NCBI RefSeq assembly: GCF_038002345.1
Contig: NZ_JBBOCJ010000001.1
Coordinates: forward strand, 1,798,001 to 1,862,000
DNA: 64,000 nucleotides
Origin: Paenibacillus sp. FSL M7-0420
Lineage (GTDB): Bacteria; Bacillota; Bacilli; Paenibacillales; Paenibacillaceae
Reading direction: 5' to 3'
Under the pieces are notes generated by a model. That model worked only from the letters and a program-made list of their open reading frames with translations. It did not search any database and was not told where the DNA came from. Below are positions 319-26,481 of this stretch, one piece after another; the first letter of the stretch is position 1, and each line of letters opens with the position of its first letter. The position numbers and the translations under genes were made by a program.

Positions 319-499
319 AATGTATACGAAAAACAGCATACATTGTGTTCACTTGCAGGCATATGGCCGAATGTATGCGGAAAACAACATACATTGTGCT
401 TGCTCACAGGCATATGGCCCGAATGTATGCGGAAAACAGCATACATTGTGCTCGCACGCAGGCGCATAACCCGAATGTATATGAAAAACAGCATATATT
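319..499. repeat. Array C: four tandem units of 51-52 bp with palindromic cores
   Basis: The core AATGTATGCGGAAAACAGCA plus TACATT is an inverted repeat (AATGTATGC / GCATACATT around an A-rich loop). It starts at 319, 370, 422 and 474, so the period is 51, 52 and 52 bp. The linkers carry a common CAGGCATATGGCC-like segment. The first and last cores are slightly diverged. It fills the otherwise empty 151-725 gap between a terminator and the yfkN promoter. No coding signal is convincing on either strand. Confidence 0.85.
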
Positions 500-640
500 G
501 AGCTGTATTTCCAGATAATCCCATTGTATTGGATTTTCGTTGTTTTTGTCATAGAGTTGTAAAATTTAATCGTTATATTTTACAAAAATAGCTGAAATAA
601 TGTGAGATTTTACACAACAATTTATAAGAGTTAATGGAAT

Positions 641-21271: not shown

Positions 21272-22696
21272 ATGTCGGTTGAAAAAGTATTGCAGACGAT
21301 CAAGGAAAACAATATCGAGTGGGTGGATTTCCGGTTTGTAGATTTGGGTGGACGTGCTCACCATATCTCTTTGCCAGCATCCGCAGTTGAAGAAGAAACA
21401 TTTGTAAATGGAGTAGCATTCGATGGTTCTTCCATTACAGGCTTCCGGGGGATTGAAGAGTCGGATATGGTAATGATGCCTGATCCAAGCACCACTTACA
21501 TTGACCCGTTCACTGCTCACCCGACACTGAACATTATGTGCGACATTTTCACACCTGATGGCGAACGTTATGAGCGCGACCCGCGCGGGATCGCAGTGAA
21601 GGCTGAAGAATTCCTGCAATCCAGCGGTGTAGGTACAGCAGCATTCTTCGCACCTGAATCCGAGTTCTTCATCTTCGACGATGTACGTTACGAGAGCGGA
21701 ATGAATACTTCCTCCTTCTATGTGGATTCCGAAGAAGCAGCATGGAACACAGGCCGCAAGGAAGAAGGCGGCAACATGGCATTCAAGGTTGGCGTGAAGG
21801 GCGGATACGTGCCTGTAGCTCCAGTGGATTCCCAGCAGGATATCCGCAGTGAAATGTGCCGTTTGCTTGGTGAAGCCGGACTCGAAATCGAGCGTCATCA
21901 CCATGAAGTAGCAACAGCAGGCCAAGCGGAAATCAACTTCCGTTTCGACACCTTGAAGAAAACAGCTGATAATCTCCTCACTTACAAATACATTGTGCAG
22001 AACACTGCACGCCAATACGGCAAGGTAGCCACCTTCATGCCAAAACCGCTGTTCGGCGATAACGGTAGCGGAATGCACGTTCACCAATCGATTTTCAACG
22101 GCGATGCCCCATTGTTCTACGAAAAAGGCGCATATGCCAACCTGAGTGAAATGGCGCTGCACTACATCGGCGGTATCCTGTATCATGCTCCTGCATTGAT
22201 CGCGCTGACGAACCCAAGCACCAACTCGTTCAAACGTCTGGTTCCTGGCTATGAAGCACCGGTCAACCTGGTATATTCTAAGGGTAACCGTTCCGCTGCA
22301 GTCCGTATCCCGGTAGCTGCTGTGACACCTAAGGGCTGTCGTATTGAATTCCGTACACCGGACTCCACGGCTAACCCATACCTGGCCTTCTCCGCTATGC
22401 TGATGGCTGGTCTGGACGGAATCAAGAAGAAGATCAACCCTGAAGAGATGGGCTACGGTCCGCTGGACAAGAACATCTACGAATTGTCTGATGCAGACAA
22501 AGAGAAGATCCGCAGCGTTCCGGGTACCCTGGACGAAGCTCTGGATGCACTGGAAGCTGACTTCGAATTCCTGACAGAGGGCGGCGTATTCACTAAGGAC
22601 TTCATCGATAACTATATCGCCCTGAAGCGTTCCGAAGCTCAAGCCGTTGCCATCCGCGTTCATCCGCATGAATACTCCCTGTACTTCGACGTATAA
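21272..22696 (+). CDS. glnA: Type I glutamine synthetase (474-aa form)
   Basis: Converts glutamate, ammonia and ATP to glutamine; forms a dodecamer in the cytoplasm. Seen are the N-terminal beta-grasp, VAFDGSSITGFRGIEESD, the metal and ATP motifs (APESEFFIFD, GSGMHVHQS, NPSTNSFKRL) and the C-terminal DFIDNYIALKRSEA...HPHEYSLYF. At 474 aa it is longer than the 444-aa GSI-alpha enzyme usual in Bacillus. It keeps a Tyr (Y403, KNIYELSD) at the place of the adenylylated Tyr of GSI-beta enzymes. It has no glnR partner next door. GGGGAGGAAT precedes the start, and a GlnR-like site is upstream. Confidence 0.95.
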   Translation: MSVEKVLQTIKENNIEWVDFRFVDLGGRAHHISLPASAVEEETFVNGVAFDGSSITGFRGIEESDMVMMPDPSTTYIDPFTAHPTLNIMCDIFTPDGERYERDPRGIAVKAEEFLQSSGVGTAAFFAPESEFFIFDDVRYESGMNTSSFYVDSEEAAWNTGRKEEGGNMAFKVGVKGGYVPVAPVDSQQDIRSEMCRLLGEAGLEIERHHHEVATAGQAEINFRFDTLKKTADNLLTYKYIVQNTARQYGKVATFMPKPLFGDNGSGMHVHQSIFNGDAPLFYEKGAYANLSEMALHYIGGILYHAPALIALTNPSTNSFKRLVPGYEAPVNLVYSKGNRSAAVRIPVAAVTPKGCRIEFRTPDSTANPYLAFSAMLMAGLDGIKKKINPEEMGYGPLDKNIYELSDADKEKIRSVPGTLDEALDALEADFEFLTEGGVFTKDFIDNYIALKRSEAQAVAIRVHPHEYSLYFDV

Positions 22697-22737
22697 GCTT
22701 TTAAGATAAGCTAGTGTAAAACTAGCTGGATAGAGAG

Positions 22738-22769
22738 GCCCCTGGAATCATTGATTCCGGGGGCTTTTT
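22738..22769 (+). terminator. Terminator after glnA
   Basis: A 12-bp stem GCCCCTGGAATC-ATT-GATTCCGGGGGC (one G-U pair) with five Ts. Confidence 0.92.
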
Positions 22770-22840
22770 GCATTTATCGTGTAAACAAACATCGGTGGCG
22801 GCTGATCGTGCTGGAGGGCGAGGTGAATGGTGGAAGGTGA

Positions 22841-23006
22841 AGGGATAAATCCCTCTGATTTAGCGGGGAGTTGGCTGGAAGGTGAGATGAAGGGGATAAA
22901 TCCCTCAGAATTAGCTGGAAGTTGGCAAATGAGTGAAATAAAAGGGATAAATCCCTCAGATTCAGCGAAAAGTTGGCTGGAAGCTAAAATGAAAGGGATA
23001 ATTCCC
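22841..23006. repeat. Array A: four 51-bp tandem units with GGGATAAATCCC cores
   Basis: GGGATAAATCCC palindromes start at 22842, 22893, 22944 and 22995, an exact 51-bp period; the last core reads GGGATAATTCCC. Linkers follow CAGAATTAGCTGGAAGTTGG and a CAAATGAG...AAATAAA-like tail. The frame stays open as a 17-residue repeat (KGINPSDLAGSWLEGEM-like), but there is no convincing start or neighbour to support translation. Confidence 0.9.
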
Positions 23007-23053
23007 TCTGTTGGTGCTGCTGATGATTAAAGCTGAGGGAGAGTAATGATGAA

Positions 23054-23361
23054 GAGCACTAGTGCACCTGAATTCAGCAATAGTGGGCAAATGAGCTAAA
23101 TGAAGAGCACTAGTGCACCTTAATTCGGCCAAAGTGGGCAAATGAGCTAAATGAAGAGCAGTAGTGCACCTGAATTCAGCAGATGTGGGCAAATAAACTA
23201 AATGAGGAGCAGTAGTGCACCTGAATTCGGCCAAAGTGGGCAAATAAGCTAAATGAGGAGCACTAGTACACCTGAATTCGGAAAAGTGGGCAAATGAGCT
23301 AAATTGGGAGCACTAGTGCACCTGAATTCGGGGAAGTTGGGTGCTAGTTGGGCAAATGTGG
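23054..23361. repeat. Array B: six 51-bp tandem units with GAGCACTAGTGCAC cores
   Basis: GCACTAGTGC-type palindromes start at 23056, 23107, 23158, 23209, 23260 and 23310 (period 51, last 50). Copies 3 and 4 carry GCAGTAGTGC and copy 5 GCACTAGTAC. The linker CTGAATTCAGC...AGTGGGCAAATGAGCTAAATGA is clearly related to that of array A, which ends 48 bp upstream. Together with array A it occupies most of the 1-kb glnA-GH94 gap. Confidence 0.9.
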
Positions 23362-23478
23362 AGCCCTGTTCTCATTTGTCTAAAATAGCTTAATATTGTG
23401 TTTTCGTAAAGTTTCGTTACTAAAATAGTATTAATGTAATAAAATTACAATAATATGTGGTGATCTGAGTTTTGGAGT

Positions 23479-23497
23479 ATTAATTGTGCACATTAAT
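23479..23497. promoter_or_regulatory. Palindromic operator-like site
   Basis: ATTAATTGTGCACATTAAT: TTAAT arms around the perfect 8-bp palindrome TGTGCACA, in the AT-rich region ahead of the GH94 gene. Confidence 0.35.
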
Positions 23498-23556
23498 CTC
23501 TGCTCATAAGTCACAATTAACGCTTTACAAAGGGAATTAACGGTGTGATAATGAAA

Positions 23557-23572
23557 CCGAAACCGATTTCGG
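23557..23572. promoter_or_regulatory. LacI-type operator candidate ahead of the phosphorylase
   Basis: CCGAAACCGATTTCGG has perfect 6-bp arms, CCGAAA and TTTCGG, with a central CG, the style of LacI/GalR operators. It lies about 150 bp upstream of the GH94 start. Confidence 0.5.
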
Positions 23573-23590
23573 AAAGCGGTATCGGGTATT

Positions 23591-23686
23591 GCGATTAAGT
23601 GTTCATGCAACTAAGCGGTTATGCAATTATGTATTAATCAATTATGTGGTTATCCAATTATGTATTTATGCAATTATGTGGTCATC
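23591..23686. repeat. 16-bp degenerate direct repeats upstream of the GH94 gene
   Basis: Six consecutive 15-16-bp units of the form (G)CAATTATGT(A/G)(T/G)TTAT begin near 23592, 23608, 23624, 23639, 23655 and 23671. They end 39 bp before the start codon, and the first two units are diverged. Confidence 0.75.
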
Positions 23687-23724
23687 GCAAACAAGAAGAT
23701 ATCTACTGTTAGGGAACAGGGAGG

Positions 23725-26481
23725 ATGAATGCATTGAAAGAACAAACCAATGGATCAAAAGCAGGCTGGAGCTTCACCGGAAATAACGGGGACTTTCGGC
23801 TGGAGCAGCCGGACCGGAGCAGCTTTTTATATTTTCCGCTAGTGAATGAAGGGGGCATGATGTCCTCGGTCAGTCCCAAGCTGCATGGTCAGGCCACTTC
23901 GGGCCATAATACCTTTCTGACACCGCCAATCTCCGTGGAGGATCTGCATAATTCCCGCGCATCGCGCAATTTCTGGGTGTACATTGAAGGCAAGGGCGCC
24001 TGGTCAGCTGCGGGTAATTCTGCACGGCAGAATGCGGCGTTCTATGGCGAAGCAGCAGATGAATCCTTGCTGGAGGCAGGACTTCTGTGGCATCGGGTGA
24101 CGCGGGAGAGTAAGGAGCTGGGGCTGAGAGCGGAGATCACAAGCTTCGTACCCTGCGGCAACGACAAGGTTGAGCTGATGAAGGTGGTACTTACGAACAG
24201 CGGTACAGAAGCACTGACGCTGACATCTACTGCGGCTATTCCGTTATATGCGCGTTCTGCGGATGATCTGCGCGATCACCGGCATGTCACCTCGCTGCTG
24301 AACCGGATCTATACTTCGGCGTATGGCGTAGAGGTGCAGCCTGCGTTGTCCTTCGACGAACGCGGCCACCGGGTGAATCATACTTCGTACGGGGTATTCG
24401 GGGCTGGTGAGGGCGGAGCGCTGCCAACCGGATTATTCCCGGTGCAGGAGGAATTCATCGGTGAGGGCGGGAGTCTGGACTGGCCGGAATCGGTTGTGAA
24501 CAATCTGGCCCCGCCGATTGGGAAAGATGGCGGAGTGCCTTGGGAAGGGTATGAGGCACTGGGAGGCCTGCGGTTCGCCGCAATCACTTTGGAGCCGGGT
24601 CAGAGTCATTCTTATGTCGTAGTCATGGCGATTGACAATGATAGAATCGATGTGCAGGCGCTGATGGCCAAATATGGCTCGGCTGCGGCTTTTGACGCGT
24701 TGCTTGATGAGAATAAACGCTTCTGGGCGGATAAAGTCAATACGGTAGAATTCCATACCGGAGATCATGCCGCCGACGAATGGATGAAATGGGTCACGCT
24801 GCAGCCAGTGCTGCGCAGACTATACGGCAACTCGTTCCTGCCTTACCACGATTATGGCAGAGGGGGACGCGGCTGGCGCGATCTTTGGCAGGATTGCCTG
24901 GCTCTATTGATTATGGAGCCTGCGGATGTGCGCAGCCTGCTGCTGAACAACTATGCCGGAGTGCGAATTGACGGCAGCAATGCGACGATCATCGGGCAGC
25001 AGCCGGGCGAATTCATTGCCGACCGCAACAATATTCCCCGGGTCTGGATGGACCATGGAGCGTGGCCGTTCCTGACCACCATGCTATACCTGGATCAGAG
25101 CGGGGATCTGGACTTCCTGCTGCAGGAGCAGACCTACTTCCGTGATACCTTCATGAACCGCTGTAAGGACCGCGATGCCTCCTGGGAGCCGGGTGCAGGA
25201 AGCAGTCTGCGGACGAATGCGGGCGAAGTCTATACAGGTACTATTCTGGAGCATATTCTGCTGCAGAATCTGGTTCCTTTCTTCAATGTGGGTGAGCATA
25301 ACAACATCCTGCTGGAAGGAGCGGACTGGAACGATGGCCTCGATATGGCAGCACAGCGGGGCGAAAGTGTCACCTTCACAGCCTTCTATGCCAGCAATCT
25401 GCTGGATCTGTCCAAGCTGCTGATTACCCTGAAGGAACGGACTGGCGGAGATACACTGGAGCTGGCAGAAGAGATGGTGCTGCTGCTTGACTCGCTCAGC
25501 CAAGCTGTCGATTATGAATCGGTTACGGCCAAGCATGAGCTCCTCAGCCGCTTCTATGCTGCCGCACCGAATAAGGTGAGCGGGGTAAGAGCCGTTCTGA
25601 AGCTTGAAGAGGTTGCAGCAGATCTTGCCCGTAAGGCGGAATGGATATTCAATCACCTGCGCCGCAATGAATGGGTAGAGAGCGGACACGGCGACGGCTG
25701 GTTCAACGGCTATTATAATAATGACGGTGAGCGCGTAGAAGGGGAATGGGCTGAGAGTACACGGATGACGCTTACCGGACAGGTCTTCCCGCTCCTGGGA
25801 CACGCGGCTGCTCCAGAGCAGATTCCTGCGATCATCTCTGCGGTAGAGCGCAATCTGTACGATGAGAAGATCGGCTACCGTCTGAACAGCAACTTCGGCG
25901 GCATTCAGCAGAATCTGGGCCGGGCGTTCGGCTTCGCCTTCGGACACAAGGAGAACGGGGCCATGTTCAGCCACATGACCGTTATGTACGGCAATGCGCT
26001 GTATAAGCGCGGATACGTCAAAGAAGGCCGCAAAGTGCTGGATTCACTGTATCGCCTGAGTGCGAACTTCGAGGTGAGCCGGATGTATCCCGGAATTCCG
26101 GAATATATCAATGAGCAGGGCAGAGGAATGTACACGTATCTGACAGGCTCGGCAAGCTGGCTGCTCCTGACGATGGTAACTGAAGTATTTGGCGTCAAAG
26201 GCAAGCTCGGCGACCTGCTGCTGCAGCCGAAGCTGGTGAATGAACAGTTTGACGGCGATAAGAGCGCCTCAATCAAGACTATCTTTGCCGGACGTGAGCT
26301 GAAAGTCGTCTATATGGCCTCTGGAAGCACGGAATACGGAGAGTATCAAATACACGCAGCCCGCTTGAACGGAGCTGAGGTAACGCTTCAGCGCGTCTCA
26401 GAGGGTGCTGTGATCCCGCGCAGCCTCTTGACAGACCTGCCTGAAGGAGAAATTCATCTGCTGGAGGTAGAACTGGCCTAA
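23725..26481 (+). CDS. GH94-type (glycosyltransferase 36 family) glycoside phosphorylase
   Basis: A 918-aa cytoplasmic enzyme with no signal peptide. A beta-sandwich domain (about 10-290, FRLEQPDRSSFLYFPL) is followed by a helical (alpha/alpha)6 catalytic domain. That domain has GRGWRDLWQDCLAL, WMDHGAWPFL and EGADWNDGLDMA; D537 in the last motif matches the GH94 general acid. Such enzymes phosphorolyse beta-glucosides (cellobiose, laminaribiose, beta-1,2-glucans); the substrate here is undetermined. GGGAGG directly abuts ATG 23725, so TTG 23734 may be the true start. The upstream LacI-like operator suggests sugar control. A mutarotase-like gene follows 145 bp later. Confidence 0.85.
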   Translation: MNALKEQTNGSKAGWSFTGNNGDFRLEQPDRSSFLYFPLVNEGGMMSSVSPKLHGQATSGHNTFLTPPISVEDLHNSRASRNFWVYIEGKGAWSAAGNSARQNAAFYGEAADESLLEAGLLWHRVTRESKELGLRAEITSFVPCGNDKVELMKVVLTNSGTEALTLTSTAAIPLYARSADDLRDHRHVTSLLNRIYTSAYGVEVQPALSFDERGHRVNHTSYGVFGAGEGGALPTGLFPVQEEFIGEGGSLDWPESVVNNLAPPIGKDGGVPWEGYEALGGLRFAAITLEPGQSHSYVVVMAIDNDRIDVQALMAKYGSAAAFDALLDENKRFWADKVNTVEFHTGDHAADEWMKWVTLQPVLRRLYGNSFLPYHDYGRGGRGWRDLWQDCLALLIMEPADVRSLLLNNYAGVRIDGSNATIIGQQPGEFIADRNNIPRVWMDHGAWPFLTTMLYLDQSGDLDFLLQEQTYFRDTFMNRCKDRDASWEPGAGSSLRTNAGEVYTGTILEHILLQNLVPFFNVGEHNNILLEGADWNDGLDMAAQRGESVTFTAFYASNLLDLSKLLITLKERTGGDTLELAEEMVLLLDSLSQAVDYESVTAKHELLSRFYAAAPNKVSGVRAVLKLEEVAADLARKAEWIFNHLRRNEWVESGHGDGWFNGYYNNDGERVEGEWAESTRMTLTGQVFPLLGHAAAPEQIPAIISAVERNLYDEKIGYRLNSNFGGIQQNLGRAFGFAFGHKENGAMFSHMTVMYGNALYKRGYVKEGRKVLDSLYRLSANFEVSRMYPGIPEYINEQGRGMYTYLTGSASWLLLTMVTEVFGVKGKLGDLLLQPKLVNEQFDGDKSASIKTIFAGRELKVVYMASGSTEYGEYQIHAARLNGAEVTLQRVSEGAVIPRSLLTDLPEGEIHLLEVELA

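Follow-up and report, generated by a model that had tools for sequence, protein, structure and literature searches.

Tandem arrays of 51-bp palindromic units follow the direction of replication in a Paenibacillus chromosome

Introduction

Polar motifs of the KOPS/SRS and Chi type are skewed with the direction of replication, and occur as short single motifs in large numbers. The arrays described here are likewise oriented by replichore (51 of 52 loci in the host genome and 39 of 40 in a second genome of the genus), but consist of palindromic cores set in 51-bp tandem arrays rather than of short single motifs. Many palindromic units, largely intergenic, are also found in the REP/BIME elements associated with TnpA-REP (RAYT), and insertion sequences can target REP-like palindromes. 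PMC6006769 describes canonical REPs as having a GT[AG]G foot together with a cognate tnpA-REP gene, and as able to pair in inverted orientation. The present arrays differ in having direct tandem units and a consensus that lacks the GT[AG]G foot (in both unit types AAATGA(A/G) precedes the core), and some array-rich genomes are without a Y1 gene.

The BOX element of Streptococcus pneumoniae (boxA-boxB(n)-boxC) is, like the arrays, modular and intergenic, with ordered modules and a variable tandem number of boxB. According to PMC3049150, 60.8% of BOX copies lie on the leading strand, mirroring coding bias, against 51 of 52 array loci. It is the module between boxA and boxC that varies in a BOX element, whereas both blocks of the arrays amplify; inspection by eye of the edges of the printed array loci revealed no common terminal module like boxA/boxC. 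The BRE repeats of Bordetella, ~90 bp long and usually intergenic, are tandem at some loci and vary in copy number at a given locus; PMC3110155 states that their orientation does not follow the replication fork, whereas array orientation follows replication. CRISPR was discarded on repeat structure, core and linker both being repeated within a locus. No published description of such an array family was found in open-licence papers.

Results

Two array blocks downstream of glnA

The window analysed is a stretch of 64,000 nucleotides from Paenibacillus sp. FSL M7-0420 (NZ_JBBOCJ010000001.1, positions 1,798,001 to 1,862,000), lying within a contig of 7.66 Mb, one of the two that make up the genome. 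The original prediction, made from this stretch, was of two adjacent 51-bp arrays of four and six units, and both TRF and unit models recovered them (Table 1). With a period of 51, TRF assigned 3.3 copies to 22840-23008 and 5.5 copies to 23049-23329, and the unit models placed unit starts at 22833, 22884, 22935 and 22986 (A) and at 23046, 23097, 23148, 23199, 23250 and 23300 (B). The palindromic cores GGGATAAATCCC in A and GAGCACTAGTGCACC in B are present as claimed, the fourth A unit carrying GGGATAATTCCC. A tail said to be common to both blocks, GGCAAATGAG (or GGCAAATAAR; also written CAAATGAG), is carried by five B units, the remaining one being altered. Among the four A units it is found once, at 22884-22934, in a unit whose sequence suggests a local hybrid of A and B. 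The first and third A units terminate in GGCTGGAAG, and the fourth is degenerate at that end.

Table 1. Features of the array locus (window coordinates).
Feature	Position	Strand	Evidence
glnA, glutamine synthetase, upstream flank, on the array's strand	21272..22696	+	Pfam PF00120, PF03951
Predicted glnA intrinsic terminator, upstream of array	22738..22769	+	Direct reading and terminator scan
A block, four 51-bp units, core GGGATAAATCCC	22833..23036	+	nhmmer unit-model scores 26-43; TRF
A unit with B-kind linker tail GGCAAATGAGT	22884..22934	+	Unit sequence
B block, six 51-bp units, core GAGCACTAGTGCACC and variants	23046..23350	+	nhmmer unit-model scores 32-50; TRF
GH94-family gene, downstream flank	23725..26481	+	Pfam PF17167, PF06165

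The predicted glnA terminator was listed by one terminator scan and was absent from the list of a second scan tool. An AT-rich tandem repeat with periods of 8, 16 and 31 occupies window positions 23594-23686, upstream of the GH94 gene. Since 51 is 3 x 17, reading frames stay open through the repeats and ORFs arise (22827-23030 on the + strand, 22962-23243 on the - strand); a coding function was rejected because 58 of 311 catalogued spacings differ from 51.

Census of the family

A catalogue built from 524 kb of fetched sequence, in which a locus was kept if at least two units scored >=12, contains 52 loci with two or more units in the host genome (31 A+B, 16 B alone and 5 A alone), 364 units in all, with a unit spacing of exactly 51 in 253 of 311 cases. 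Own-genome blast searches gave at least 47 matches with B and at least 59 with A, lower bounds in that the two censuses scored 40 of 52 and 40 of 53 candidates. Pattern counts (forward/reverse) were 75/74 for A and 87/70 for B with <=1 mismatch, and a general core pattern matched 74 times forward and 83 times in reverse; reversed-pattern controls gave 0 throughout. The general pattern adds loci 2440632, 2601044, 4409965 and 4644088 to the 52 catalogued, so that these counts too are lower bounds.

Distribution in other genomes is patchy. The linker pattern occurs in 14 of 100 genomes of the genus, and among 197 genomes of the family exact A or B patterns beyond the genus are single copies alone. 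By exact patterns, A is present and B missing in two genomes (G029 and G042), and in a third (G157) B is accompanied by one copy of A. Whole genomes were searched for the linker, the cores and Y1 matches, the first places alone being listed. Collections of plasmids and phages yielded no match to the arrays. At glnA itself, 2 of 80 loci from named genomes, some of them incomplete, carry an array; P. tritici, whose GlnA is 99% identical, is without one. Inspection by eye of P. tritici and P. phytohabitans (L102, L104) shows a different intergenic sequence with short internal repeats in the array's place downstream of glnA.

Orientation along the chromosome

Orientation after replication is the strongest feature of the arrays, and one that is invisible from the window alone. 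GC skew in the host chromosome is positive at 0-3.49 Mb and negative at 3.78-7.19 Mb (20 spaced 12-kb samples), and with replichores assigned from these spaced samples and the change of sign taken as the terminus, array direction agrees with replication direction at 51 of 52 loci. The one lagging locus, 6214443, is weak and irregular. At the level of single units, 386 of the 394 that score >=6 point with replication. All 74 forward matches of the general core lie below 3.52 Mb; among the 26 matches listed of the 83 in reverse, 25 lie above 3.98 Mb and one is a forward palindrome read backwards. A search of L091 for a dif site near 3.79 Mb found none at <=3 mismatches.

The same behaviour was seen in G126, a single-contig genome of the genus with positive skew at 4.6-7.2 and 0.2-0.6 Mb and negative skew at 0.9-4.0 Mb. 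There, 53 of 54 hits follow the skew, and when these were merged by hand into 40 loci (40 of 71 candidates having been scored), 39 follow, the exception being locus 1569542. Among ten loci listed from G203, eight follow the skew, 3301671 opposes it and 5040365 falls between skew samples.

Genes in the catalogued stretches, called with a simple in-house ORF scorer rather than a standard gene finder, are themselves mostly leading (300 of 404); as the sole cause of 51 leading loci in 52, this bias has P = 3.6e-6. The 52 arrays have both neighbouring genes co-oriented in 26 cases, convergent in 20, divergent in three and both opposed in two, with one flank unknown in the remaining case, and 114 control gaps of >=100 bp comprise 55 leading tandem, 22 convergent, 29 divergent and eight lagging tandem. 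Divergent gaps are thus under-used by arrays (3 of the 51 with two known flanks versus 29 of 114 controls). In convergent gaps, where a transcript-linked element should split between the two directions, all 20 arrays are leading, and so replication, not transcription, seems to set their direction. A terminator-like site separates gene from array at 21 of the 46 loci whose upstream gene is co-oriented and whose flanks are both known, the window's included, and is lacking ahead of the array at 25; detection of such sites is partial, since of 89 gene ends at control gaps free of arrays, 27 show one within the first 200 bp.

Block order

Along the direction of replication, A comes before B without interleaving in 29 of the 31 mixed loci of the host genome. 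The exceptions are 1735824, where B is followed by A, and 1492076, where one irregular B-like unit is followed by seven A units. This count leaves out two pairs of separate arrays, at 4594 kb (B then A, ~330 bp apart) and at 4015-4016 kb (A then B). Of 25 G126 loci, 19 are mixed, every one A then B, and the same order is found in printed loci from other species (L209, L187, L192 and L200); in L182, from another species, an A-like core comes last, after AGGCAAAAGTGCCT units.

Relationship of linkers and cores

Consensus units were built from one unit per locus and type, drawn from the host and other genomes (53 A, 60 B), and read GAAATGA-AAGGGATAAATCCCTTT-GATTCCGCCGAAAGTGGGCTGGATGGG for A and CAAATGA-GGAGCACTAGTGCACCT-GAATTCGGCGAAAGTGGGCTAAACGAG for B. 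The linkers had been described as plainly related, and indeed their consensus sequences match in 26 of 34 columns, as against <=20 in 10,000 shuffles. Whole units match at 32 of 51 positions in register 0 and at <=20 in every other rotation; the cores are identical at 6 of 17 positions. A candidate second hairpin within the linker (GCC-GAAAGTG-GGC) is the best helix window in A by excess pairing (12.5, next 9.5) and weak in B; it was set aside.

A conserved linker bearing a swapped palindrome had suggested a modular repeat, to be checked by counting the cores that pair with one linker. More than one core does occur on a homologous linker, both in the host genome (GGGATAAATCCC, GRNGCANNAGTGCNCC, GGTGTATAAATACACC and hybrids such as AGTGTATAAATCCC) and in other species (including AGGCAAAAGTGCCT, GGGGCAGAAGTGCCCC and AGAGCAAAAATGCCTCT). 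That part of the modular idea stands. The substitution of an unrelated module is unsupported, as the cores align on one scaffold: they are variants of a single palindrome with intermediates, which leaves the idea of a swapped module only partly right. The form RGNGYANNARTRCNCY fits B cores and B intermediates, and the cores GGTGTATAAATACACC and AGTGTATAAATCCC connect A with B. Core columns 12 and 19 are C-G in 50, G-C in 48 and T-A in two of 113 units, mostly G-C in A and mostly C-G in B, so that both arms change together. Pairing at 12-19, 9-22 and 10-21 exceeds all 2000 shuffles when the 113 units are pooled, an excess that is largely the A/B difference and is small within A alone or B alone. 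Columns 10 and 21 form an A-A mismatch in 28 of 60 B cores, and perfect core pairing is therefore dispensable. Where a locus has two or more units of both types (22 loci), the linker distance between A and B is 0.486 within a locus versus 0.501 across loci (20 of 2000 permutations as low); neighbouring blocks are hardly closer than distant ones, and exchange between them is thus weak. On these sequence comparisons, we read A and B as probable diverged forms of one site, not exchanged modules. Gradual divergence, which the original prediction had offered as its fallback, agrees with the single core scaffold and the paired arm changes.

Conservation and orthologous loci

Cores are better conserved than linkers, both between loci and between orthologues. 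Among 34 A and 41 B units from different loci of the host genome, the inner core (columns 11-20) differs per site by 0.039 in A and 0.214 in B, and the linker by 0.388 and 0.395, respectively; part of the core conservation is ascertained, because the unit models were seeded on cores, and linker differences are inflated where units carry indels, because the comparison was ungapped. Arrays also persist at orthologous sites: in a comparison that took 25 of the ~40 G126 loci, 18 share flanks with array loci of the host (identity 87-97%), and for 16 the match extends to both sides. With block consensus units and the core defined as columns 8-23, 13 orthologous A pairs have 12 core differences (5.8% of sites) versus 94 elsewhere (20.7%), and 17 B pairs have 23 (8.5%) versus 92 (15.5%). 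At orthologous locus 1492076, the host has mainly A and G126 has B. Copy number also varies, the window's A4B6 corresponding to A4B5 in G126, A1B4 in P. silagei and A5B1 in P. piscarius. Four of seven loci found in G126 alone were examined in the host genome by eye, with indistinct borders; one holds a degenerate B-like array, one a single hybrid remnant and two none.

Neighbouring repeats and insertion sequences

A second tandem family of 51/52-bp units, D (e.g., AATGTAATCGAAAAACCGATTACAA and AATGTATGCGGAAAACAGCATACAT), lies at window positions 319-504 and occurs genome-wide, with 465 forward and 325 reverse matches at <=2 mismatches (control, 0). D precedes B arrays at 1735, 2551, 3359 and 3983 kb. 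Among 100 D matches listed, eight are clearly against the skew (3312459, six from 5669574, and 5685415). Where skew is negative, D units in the other orientation number six at 5669574-5669829 and three at 5685415-5685622; inversion was rejected as the source of misoriented units at 5.67-5.69 Mb, local skew not being inverted. Six + copies lie at 3786427, where sampled skew is weakly negative, and across L091 (C1, 3786427-3789622) D arrays switch strand within ~2.7 kb near the skew change. Homology of D is not claimed, either to A (local score 26, reached by 23 of 500 shuffles) or to B (local score 15, reached by 419 of 500).

An insertion sequence of the DDE_Tnp_1 type, with ends CAATGTCATTAAG and a length of 1641 bp in the measured copy, lies inside B cores at five places on C1 (1250538, 1538207-1539847, 1770210, 5798055-5799695 and 5895477-5897117; L062 and others), with a target duplication of ~10 bp by eye. 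Within the array-rich stretches to which the search was confined, these insertions hint at a preference for the B palindrome. Three A arrays of the host (2706843, 4016098 and 6927072) have similar flanks with GGGGCTGTCYCAAAAG downstream, as if they sat in a larger common repeat or transposon remnant.

Discussion

Our tentatively preferred reading, which we hold with a little less than even confidence, is that the arrays are long-lived, untranslated DNA elements, putative polar binding arrays kept aligned with replication. The conserved palindromes and the constant 51-bp spacing, about five helical turns, suggest a dimeric DNA-binding protein on one face of the helix, and each core would then be a palindromic site for such a protein or for related proteins. 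Orientation and block order together suggest that direction matters: the array would take its direction from the asymmetry of the unit and from the usual order of A before B, and this direction may stay aligned because the element is read with the fork, or during chromosome segregation or condensation. Copy number would shift by slippage or unequal recombination within a locus, and selection would maintain the core sequence. Action at the DNA level is favoured. Among the mechanisms originally proposed, protein-binding cassettes agree best with the data, and neither transcribed hairpins nor active spread of a palindrome agrees well. Weighing against putative binding arrays are the patchiness of the family, the finding of A and B apart, the A-A mismatch kept by many B cores, the partial ascertainment of core conservation, the exceptions in orientation, the A-like core that ends L182 and the two of four G126-only loci without an array in the host.

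Alternatively, the arrays could be a selfish dispersed element, in which units or an A-B seed spread through an HUH/Y1 single-strand transposase acting on the lagging-strand template, insertion fixing the orientation (cf. IS200/IS605) and later slippage building the arrays. IS608 and ISDra2 target the lagging-strand template, according to PMC6006769. Spread of this kind would account for orientation and A-to-B order together, and the host genome has three matches to PF01797 (Y1 transposase), none of them linked to the arrays here. However, PF01797 has no match in the array-rich genomes G203 and G134, nor in G064, leaving dependence on a Y1 transposase unsupported; across the genus it is present in 11 of 14 linker-positive genomes versus 56 of 100 overall. 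Moreover, the catalogue is without any A1B1 locus, arrays share no common edge motif by eye, and the four loci examined offer no clean empty site. Linkers differ by 0.44-0.46 between loci while cores are intact, and this linker divergence gives no sign of recent spread. We therefore consider a selfish origin unlikely.

Orientation might also reflect stability, the G-/A-rich strand being tolerated only as the leading strand and inverted arrays being lost or stalling forks; arrays would then arise anywhere, and their orientation would be a survivor effect without function. Unit skews are in keeping with this (GC 0.345 and AT 0.234 in A; GC 0.177 and AT 0.296 in B), as are the weak, irregular state of the lone lagging locus and the variation of copy number among orthologues. 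This explanation leaves the 29:2 block order and the core conservation unexplained and, more weakly, is at odds with the persistence of D units in opposite orientation where skew is negative; we regard it as rather improbable. A transcribed hairpin element of 3' untranslated regions, such as an attenuator or mRNA stabiliser, for which speak the co-oriented upstream gene at 47 of 52 loci, the short hairpins that cores can form and the 25 loci with no terminator-like site ahead of the array, is very improbable in view of the 20 convergent gaps in which the array follows the leading-strand gene, the terminator-like sites at 21 loci, the near-random folding of four 150-nt window pieces as DNA (z -0.8 to -1.5) and Rfam searches with 0 matches at gathering score in the whole window and, permissively at 22700-23720, three eukaryotic families all below cut-off.

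Returning to putative binding arrays, a more specific proposal, which we consider quite doubtful, is that a subset of Paenibacillus marks chromosome direction with ordered A-then-B arrays that would be read by a putative pair of proteins or by one protein of two specificities. If true, this would be a polarity system made of binding arrays, not of short skewed motifs. The family nearly always follows replication and ignores adjacent genes, whereas the repeats compared here mirror genes (BOX) or ignore the fork (BRE), and it may thus represent either a functional polar element of the chromosome or the clear trace of a spread or loss that depends on the fork.
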